Below, piece by piece: positions 62,219-64,000 of a stretch of DNA of 64,000 bases. A program made the translations under genes and the position numbers. This DNA comes from Rhodospirillales bacterium (GTDB lineage Bacteria; Pseudomonadota; Alphaproteobacteria; BOG-932; Roseiterribacteraceae): assembly GCA_028291365.1 (NCBI GenBank), contig JAQGIE010000045.1:31684-95683 (forward strand), read 5' to 3'. Each line of letters opens with the position of its first letter. Positions within the stretch are counted from its first letter, which is position 1. Below the pieces are notes generated by a model that worked only from the letters and a program-made list of their open reading frames with translations, was not told the origin of the DNA and ran no database searches.

Positions 62219-62512
62219 TCATGCCTCGACCAGCTCGATCTTGAGCTTCATGCCGAGCGCGCCCGCAGCGCGTTCGAGCGTGTCGAGCGACACCGCGACG
62301 TTGGTCGGGTCAAGCACGCGTTCGACCTGCGTCCGGCTCGTTTTCATCGCGCTGGCGAGATCTTTCTTCGAGAGCCGGATGCGCTTGCGAGCCTGTTCGA
62401 GCTGCCAGGCCAGCACGCGCTTGGTCGCTGTGCTGTCAATGTCAGCGCGCAGGCCCTGCTCGTGCAGGAACGCATCGAACGATTGGCCGCTGGGGTTCTG
62501 CTTCTTCGCCAT
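62219..62512 (-). CDS. higA: XRE/HTH antitoxin-like protein (HigA-like)
   Basis: LEQARKRIRLSKKDLASAMKTSRTQVERVLDPTNVAVSLDTLERAAGALGMKLKIELVEA. Confidence 0.8.
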   Translation of the reverse strand: MAKKQNPSGQSFDAFLHEQGLRADIDSTATKRVLAWQLEQARKRIRLSKKDLASAMKTSRTQVERVLDPTNVAVSLDTLERAAGALGMKLKIELVEA

Positions 62513-62633: not shown

Positions 62634-62741
62634 CGCCAGTCTTTTCCCGCTTGCGACGCTTATGCCGGGCAAAAAGCTGGATGACCGAATCGGGATCGCT
62701 GAGTCAAACTCCGACATCGTTCCGGAATCCCGGAGTCGCCT

Positions 62742-64000
62742 GTGAACCCGAACGGCCTGACGGATGAGGCCTGGGCGGTGATCGAACCGCTCCTCCCAGT
62801 GCCGAGAAAGACCAATCTTGCGGCCCAGCCGATCTCGTGGCGCGCCGTGCTCGACGCTGCGCTTTGGGTTCAAGCGACTGGCCGGCCCTGGCGCGCGGTG
62901 CCGGCGGAGATTGGTCACTGGAACAGCCTGCACGGTCGCTACCGGACCGGATTGACGGGAGCACTCGAAGGATTGCGTGGCCAGCTCGAAATGCTTGCAA
63001 TCGATGAGGCGACGCGCGGCCTGCTGCGTCAGGCGTTGGCGATCGCACCGGCCACAAACGCATCTGTCGCCGGTGTGACCGGCCACAAGCCGGCGAGGCC
63101 GCCCGCAAATGGCTCGGTTCGATCGGCCACAAACGCGTCGTCGCCGGTGCAGCCGGCCACGGCACCGGCGACAAGTACGCCTACGCGTCAGCGCTTGCGT
63201 GTCGCCCGTGACGCGTTCCGCGGCGGTCTTGTCGCCGGTGTGGCCGGCGAACTTGCCGGCGACAACAAGCGGGCGACCGGCGACGGCGAGGAGGCTCGCC
63301 TTGCCGAAGCTTTCGGCCGCCGCACCGGCAAGGCGGTGACGGGCGCGGTGCTGGATCTGGTCGAGGGCCGGGCCAGCAGACGCGGCGCAGCCAGGAAGCG
63401 CCGCTCTGCCGCCCGGCCGCGGGCGGAGGCGGCGGGCGGCGGCGTCGTCGCCCTGCTGCGGCTGTTGATTCCGTATGTGCCGCGCTGGCTGGTGGCGCTG
63501 TTTGCGTCGCTGGTCCTGTTCGGCGTCGCGGTCGATCGGGGTGGCCAGCAATTCGTCGACTTCCTGCGCTGGGCGCGCGCGCAATGGATCGAATGGACCG
63601 CCATCCCGCCCTACTGGGCGCTCGGCGCAGCGGTGCTGCTCGTCTGCGCGTTCTTCTCGATCCGCCATGTCCAGCGGCGCGCGCCATTCCGCGTGCGGGC
63701 TGAACTCGCCGAATTCGCGCGACTGTCGGCTGACGCGATCAGCCACGGTGATGTGGACGACTGGCTCGATTGCTTCTGCTTCCCTGCGATGCTGGTCGAG
63801 ACCGAAGGCAATCACGTGTTCGCCGATCGCGCGTCGCTGGAAGACCTGTTGGCGACGCGGCTGGACTTCTATCAGGCACAGGGTGTTGCCGCGTGTGTGC
63901 GGCGCGTGCGTGACGCGCGCCTGTTCGCGCCCGATCTGGCGCAACTTCGCGTGCACGACACGTTGCGACAGGCCGATGGCGACGCGATCGTCGCGTGGGA
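62742..64000 (+). CDS. IS5-type transposase N-terminal (DUF4096-like) domain + basic/Ala-rich linker + two TM helices + NTF2/SnoaL-like domain; truncated by window end
   Basis: Manual translation from GTG 62742 (GGAG upstream) open to 64000, 419 codons: VNPNGLTDEAWAVIEPLLPVPRKTNLAAQPISWRAVLDAALWVQATGRPWRAVPAEIGHWNSLHGRYRTG...; LLIPYVPRWLVALFASLVLFGVAV; YWALGAAVLLVCAFFSI; ADAISHGDVDDWLDCFCFPAMLVETEGNHVFADRASLEDLL. Not in the supplied ORF track. Confidence 0.75.
   Translation, partial: MNPNGLTDEAWAVIEPLLPVPRKTNLAAQPISWRAVLDAALWVQATGRPWRAVPAEIGHWNSLHGRYRTGLTGALEGLRGQLEMLAIDEATRGLLRQALAIAPATNASVAGVTGHKPARPPANGSVRSATNASSPVQPATAPATSTPTRQRLRVARDAFRGGLVAGVAGELAGDNKRATGDGEEARLAEAFGRRTGKAVTGAVLDLVEGRASRRGAARKRRSAARPRAEAAGGGVVALLRLLIPYVPRWLVALFASLVLFGVAVDRGGQQFVDFLRWARAQWIEWTAIPPYWALGAAVLLVCAFFSIRHVQRRAPFRVRAELAEFARLSADAISHGDVDDWLDCFCFPAMLVETEGNHVFADRASLEDLLATRLDFYQAQGVAACVRRVRDARLFAPDLAQLRVHDTLRQADGDAIVAW

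Follow-up and report, generated by a model that had tools for sequence, protein, structure and literature searches.

Four paralogous proteins of one alphaproteobacterial genome join a DUF4096 transposase domain to probable membrane segments and carry private DNA-word arrays in their own genes

The open frame at the end of the window (the whole stretch of DNA analysed here, 64,000 nucleotides long) is one of four paralogues of a single genome, each of which joins an N-terminal DUF4096 domain to one or two hydrophobic segments, and each of which carries, in the DNA encoding its linker, an array of a short word of its own. The private array within each linker is the most informative feature of these genes, and one that the preliminary description of the window had missed. 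We propose that the four are domesticated-transposase, membrane-anchored DNA-binding proteins that would read the arrays in their own genes, with autoregulation and/or tethering as the result, a reading for and against which we find the arguments evenly poised.

The frame of the window gene opens with GTG and runs without interruption to window position 64000, as had been noted from the letters alone. That position is also the end of the contig (G000:C234:95683), and because the contig itself stops there the gene is cut by the assembly and its 3′ end lies beyond reach. Its absence from the normal list of open reading frames has a single cause, namely that it runs off the end of the sequence. 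The features read in it, other than the array given further below, are as follows.

62732..62735, + strand: GGAG, a possible Shine-Dalgarno sequence 6 nt upstream of the GTG start, read from the sequence
62742..64000, + strand: GTG-started open frame of 419 codons, cut by the contig end, comprising DUF4096, linker, two hydrophobic segments and C-terminal region
62757..62945, + strand: DUF4096 (PF13340) domain, residues 6-68 (hmmscan E=1.6e-15, 57.5 bits, cut-off 34.3)
63477..63533, + strand: hydrophobic segment 1, residues 246-264, a probable transmembrane helix (Kyte-Doolittle mean 2.05 over 19 residues)
63600..63656, + strand: hydrophobic segment 2, residues 287-305, a probable transmembrane helix (Kyte-Doolittle mean 1.87 over 19 residues)
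63681..63998, + strand: C-terminal region, incomplete at the contig end, matching no Pfam family and without a homologue in 386 genomes of the class

The frame as described was confirmed, and its interpretation upheld in part. The N-terminal domain is of the DUF4096 type of IS5-family transposases, a low-complexity linker and two hydrophobic segments follow it, and there is no DDE region: the NCBIfam IS5 transposase model aligns to the protein only over model positions 3-66 of 258, below its cut-off, and the DDE part is therefore absent from the frame. The domain is predicted to be all-helical, the best part of a model built from 43 sequences being residues 31-70 (pLDDT 91-95, against 79.5 overall). 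A search of solved structures with its sequence found no relative, and one with the model found no confident match, the best Foldseek hit reaching only E=3.9. The proposed identity of the C-terminus found no support. It had been taken as a candidate for an NTF2/SnoaL-like fold, but no such Pfam family matched up to E=10 and no relevant PDB or NCBIfam match was found for this region, which is incomplete; the full-length AlphaFold model, made from the single sequence without an alignment, is of low confidence (pLDDT 42).

A search of the source genome with PF13340 brought out four loci that each have a long frame.

WIN: window gene, contig C234, 419 codons as cut, two hydrophobic segments, PF13340 E=1.6e-15
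P42: contig C261, 302 aa from its ATG, complete, one clear hydrophobic segment, not two
P48: contig C69, 334 aa, complete, two hydrophobic segments
P49: contig C203, about 335 aa, complete, two hydrophobic segments

The three complete paralogues match PF13340 with E-values of 4e-19, 2.2e-14 and 5.1e-13, and all four stand above the cut-off. The layout common to them is DUF4096, a low-complexity linker and one or two hydrophobic segments, for which the mean hydropathy over 19 residues is 1.77-2.51; on hydropathy, insertion into a membrane is probable. Pfam and NCBIfam searches placed no transposase family beyond DUF4096 in any of the four, of which WIN is cut at its 3′ end and the others are complete. 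The layout of the window frame is no chance reading frame, since it recurs in three complete paralogues of that genome. The window gene does lie at a contig end, where an IS5 fragment could have been joined to another gene by the assembly, but a chimera of this kind is barely credible given the same layout in three complete paralogues elsewhere, two of which adjoin genes syntenic with the same-genus genome G001. The suggestion that a transposase DNA-binding module has been reused in a membrane-tethered protein is thus upheld as regards the layout, four times repeated and without DDE, though not as regards the NTF2/SnoaL part.

The paralogues are only distantly alike. Against the window gene the other three N-domains show 28-36% identity, those of P48 and P49 are 74% identical to each other, the C-terminal halves are strongly divergent, and a tree, with long branches, gave no support to a single origin of the four. 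In this divergence they are unlike the near-identical copies of an IS. Between P48 and P49, the closest pair, dN/dS is 0.23 over the N-domain, 0.83 over the linker and 0.50 over the C-terminal part; the N-domain of this pair is under purifying selection, while its linker peptide is almost unconstrained. Transposase genes in decay that had become joined, by chance, to whatever lies downstream would also possess a domain of transposase origin from which the catalytic part is gone, and since G001 has no DUF4096 gene the genes are therefore not conserved over the genus. Decay is nevertheless very improbable in view of the four independent frames, open over 302 to more than 419 codons and alike in layout, the coding-type codon positions of the P42 frame, the dN/dS values of 0.23 and 0.50, and the lack of IS ends: the best IS-type inverted repeats flanking P42, P48 and P49 matched at 13-15 of 18 positions, against 12-14 in shuffled flanks, and none was convincing.

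A repeat search of each gene showed the linker-coding DNA of every paralogue to be an array packed with copies of one short word on both strands, the word being TGTSGCCGG in WIN, ACGTCCGC in P42, CACGTCCCG in P48 and CATGTCCSG in P49. The words are private to their genes, such that the matrix of copies in WIN, P42, P48 and P49 is nearly diagonal.

TGTSGCCGG: 7, 0, 0, 0
ACGTCCGC: 0, 9, 1, 0
CACGTCCCG: 0, 0, 8, 0
CATGTCCSG: 0, 0, 0, 8

Within the window gene the array consists of the following sites.

63048..63264, both strands: array of the private word TGTSGCCGG, seven full sites
63048-63056 (-), 63065-63073 (+), 63079-63087 (-), 63165-63173 (-), 63230-63238 (+), 63239-63247 (+) and 63256-63264 (-): the full sites
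Near 63125 and 63200: shorter variants, TGTSGCC

In all four genes the array runs from codon 103-127 to codon 173-196, over 203-222 nt, which puts it within the gene body and not ahead of the start. Every reading frame is used by the sites of P42, P48 and P49, and two frames by those of WIN; because the sites stand on both strands and in different frames they encode different peptides, which in P48 are VPR, TSRG, RGTW and AGRE. When each gene was recoded synonymously 1000 times, the motif counts of 9, 18, 13 and 10 (WIN, P42, P48 and P49) exceeded the maxima of the recoded sets, which were 5, 12, 11 and 6. As the motifs were chosen after the genes had been seen, the motif-free 8-mer measure is the safer one, and by it the highest count was equalled in 16, 0, 0 and 0 of the 1000 recodings, the window array being statistically the weakest of the four (P about 0.016).

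Ordinary loci of the same domain family lack such arrays. Our control set comprised 85 different DUF4096 loci, i.e. the four paralogues and 81 ordinary ones; over the 600 bases after the domain the paralogues hold 6-9 copies of one 8-mer, the ordinary loci at most 3. Over the remainder of the frame, no hydrophobic peak among the 81 exceeds 1.65, a comparison limited by the many frames among them that are short or cut. It might be argued that the repeats are a by-product with no relation to DUF4096, left by slippage or repeat exchange in a low-complexity linker or serving as sites of an unrelated factor. Growth by duplication is common in disordered linkers, the P48 array is in part a tandem of 12-nt units (spacing 12, 12, 12, 12), and GTCCGC arrays occur outside the family too. 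Codon slippage, however, does not make words that lie in both orientations and in different frames and so yield different peptides, and each paralogue has a word of its own in an array of 203-222 nt at the same place; we regard a by-product as distinctly unlikely.

To the extent that the rest of the genome was scanned, the four genes stand out there as well. A motif-free scan of ~1.56 Mb, which included the contigs of interest and was not a random sample, ranked them at the top together with an array on contig C247; besides the four genes, the dense windows (at least 6 copies) were confined to two arrays of related words, a glycine-rich gene and REP-like palindromes. The same-genus genome G001, scanned over 300 kb, had no window above 4 copies. 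Across the whole genome the sole dense cluster of TTGTSGCCGG is in the window gene, and of the 10 inverted pairs formed by the P48/P49 word, 7 fall within the P48 and P49 genes.

Arrays of words related to that of P42, with the core GTCCGC, also occur at an end of contig C188, at an end of contig C148 and on C247, apparently between genes. The two contig ends (L106:1-120 for C188, L107:1-70 for C148) bear ACGTCCGC arrays like that of the P42 gene and may belong to a single locus that the assembly split at the repeat. The array on C247 (C247:441-705, equivalent to L112:441-705) is made mostly of CTGTCCGC, with GCGGACAG as well, amounting to 10 copies and 18 occurrences of GTCCGC; it lies apparently between two convergent genes, on a stretch in which no DUF4096 gene was read. 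These arrays could serve as additional targets of P42, or be those of a paralogue that has been lost or was not assembled.

Arrays apparently between genes on C188, C148 and C247 would suit a more conventional account, by which the four proteins control other genes as ordinary membrane-bound one-component regulators, the in-gene array serves only as an autoregulatory operator and tethering plays no separate part. The combination of a DNA-binding domain with membrane segments is indeed the layout of such regulators. Proteins of the ToxR/CadC type have a cytoplasmic DNA-binding N-domain and a membrane segment, the former an OmpR-type winged helix, with a periplasmic sensor, and bind promoters. 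The paralogues are like them in joining a DNA-binding-type domain to hydrophobic segments, but unlike them in that this domain is DUF4096 and that the array is inside the gene, and no Pfam family of an OmpR-type winged helix or a periplasmic sensor was matched in any of the four. Furthermore, no regulon is visible, because the one dense window-word cluster and most of the P48/P49 pairs sit in their own genes, and the arrays occupy gene bodies, not the DNA ahead of the starts. We therefore consider this account unlikely, while giving it some weight.

Our proposal has each N-domain recognise the sites within its own gene, and the two most similar domains (P48 and P49) are also those with the two most similar words. 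The linker peptides of this pair are 34% identical, and the array is retained in both, with CACGTCC in P48 and CATGTCC in P49. Such a pattern fits selection on DNA sites that would be changing along with the domain, an indication drawn from one pair. The array words were also compared with the ends of ordinary DUF4096 IS5 elements, which we found by an inverted-repeat search and aligned on TAG[GA]. The consensus of 52 elements is TAGG-NNN-TGT-NNN-CA, with TGT at positions 8-10 in 41 of 61 different arms, and the triplet after TGT is element-specific. In several array words a YGT precedes a variable triplet, and among the elements there is one with TGTCCGC (L034) and one with TGTCCC (L206). Against the terminal-repeat profile, however, three of the words gave P = 0.03-0.4 by site and the P48 word failed; the likeness of the array words to element ends is a lead, suggestive only.

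Proteins of this layout were found in one genome only. PF13340 has no match at all in G001, and in other genomes of the family it matches only shorter frames of 118-154 aa. A profile of the four N-domains, run against two overlapping draws, one of 386 genomes from the class and one of 399 from the phylum (>730 different genomes together), recovered the paralogues at E=1e-39 to 1e-43 and no further member, the next matches being frames of 220 and 160 aa at 3e-18 and 5e-18. Homologues of the C-terminal parts were likewise sought without result, with the window protein in 386 genomes and with P49 in 190, and neither P49 against plasmids nor P49 and the window protein against viral contigs gave a match. 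Orthologues with the same fusion, which had been suggested as a check, were not found in related genomes, the paralogues of the same genome being the only ones. The genes adjoining P49 and P48 are conserved in G001 at 78% and 72-75% DNA identity, the similarity stopping about 1.3 kb from the P49 gene and 73 bases from the P48 gene; the flanks of the P42 locus are conserved only in part.

The window protein is not an IS5 transposase, and by family it is not of the ToxR or ParB type either. The paralogues share with IS5-family transposases the N-terminal PF13340 domain, but they are without DDE and convincing terminal inverted repeats, are fused to membrane segments, and have an in-gene site array that the 81 ordinary DUF4096 loci do not. 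The REP-associated tyrosine transposases (RAYTs) belong to the HuH enzymes, possess catalytic residues and are associated with REPs dispersed between genes. They resemble the present case as domesticated-type transposases paired with private short palindromic words, and differ from it in that the paralogues have no catalytic part and carry the words inside the gene (the RAYT superfamily is treated in PMC6006769). For the action that we propose, the closest parallel is the nucleoid occlusion protein Noc of Bacillus subtilis which, according to PMC4331003, binds specific DNA sites and the membrane simultaneously and so brings DNA to the membrane. Noc is ParB-related, attaches to the membrane through an amphipathic helix at its N-terminus and has its sites distributed around the chromosome, whereas the paralogues have a transposase domain, hydrophobic segments, candidate sites mainly in their own genes and no match to the ParB Pfam family in any of the four. 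A transposon-derived PIF/harbinger protein may, according to the abstract of PMC11893794, keep its DNA-binding preference and act on nearby genes; it is eukaryotic, and that abstract mentions neither a membrane anchor nor an in-gene array.

The mechanism that we envisage begins with the N-domain, which probably reads the array in its own gene. It would bind there while the hydrophobic segments keep the protein in the inner membrane. Sites in the gene body would hinder transcription, so that the product would check its own gene (autoregulation); the locus would be kept at the membrane by numerous sites together with numerous anchored proteins; and the private words would keep the four paralogues from interfering with one another. 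As the outcome, autoregulation and/or tethering of the locus to the membrane stands, in our estimate, at or just short of the balance point. More tentative is the full notion of a self-addressed DNA-membrane tether, in which the linker DNA doubles as the sites of the domain that it follows, protein, gene and address co-evolve, and the locus is pinned by its own product; we offer it as a possibility that has somewhat more against it than for it. Domesticated transposase domains and membrane-bound DNA-binding proteins are already known, and the self-addressed array is the new element; in the open-licence papers searched we found no precedent for the layout. If the proposal is true, this would be a case of domestication in which domain specificity and DNA words can be followed within one genome, with four domains that each have a word, among them two closely related domains between whose words one or two bases differ. 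It would offer a natural set for learning how DUF4096 reads DNA, from a domain whose model has no confident solved relative, it would mean that the linker is dictated by DNA sites and not by the function of its peptide, and it would provide a further means by which a chromosomal locus can be attached to the membrane.

Several smaller observations concern the neighbourhoods of these loci and other repeats of the genome. Directly upstream of the window gene, at window positions 62219-62512 on the minus strand, lies a small frame of the XRE/HigA-like antitoxin type, next to which no intact toxin frame was evident by eye. Directly upstream of the P48 gene on C69 is a small protein, P0002 (L110:14569-14976), whose homologue P0003 (L112:36-380) stands beside the C247 array; neither belongs to a known family, and there are 11 matches in G001. 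P0002 was considered as a partner of P48 and rejected, as it belongs to a multicopy family that is present also in G001, which has no DUF4096 gene. Mixed-orientation repeats of CAGAGAAC and GTTCTCTG, 4-5 copies in 260 bases, occur at L110:2536-2860 and L131:9621-9945, and REP-like palindromes of the CATCCCCGCGAAAGCGGGGATCC and CATCCCTGCGAACGCAGGGATCC types lie between genes at L232:19060-19310 and L274:3068-3255.
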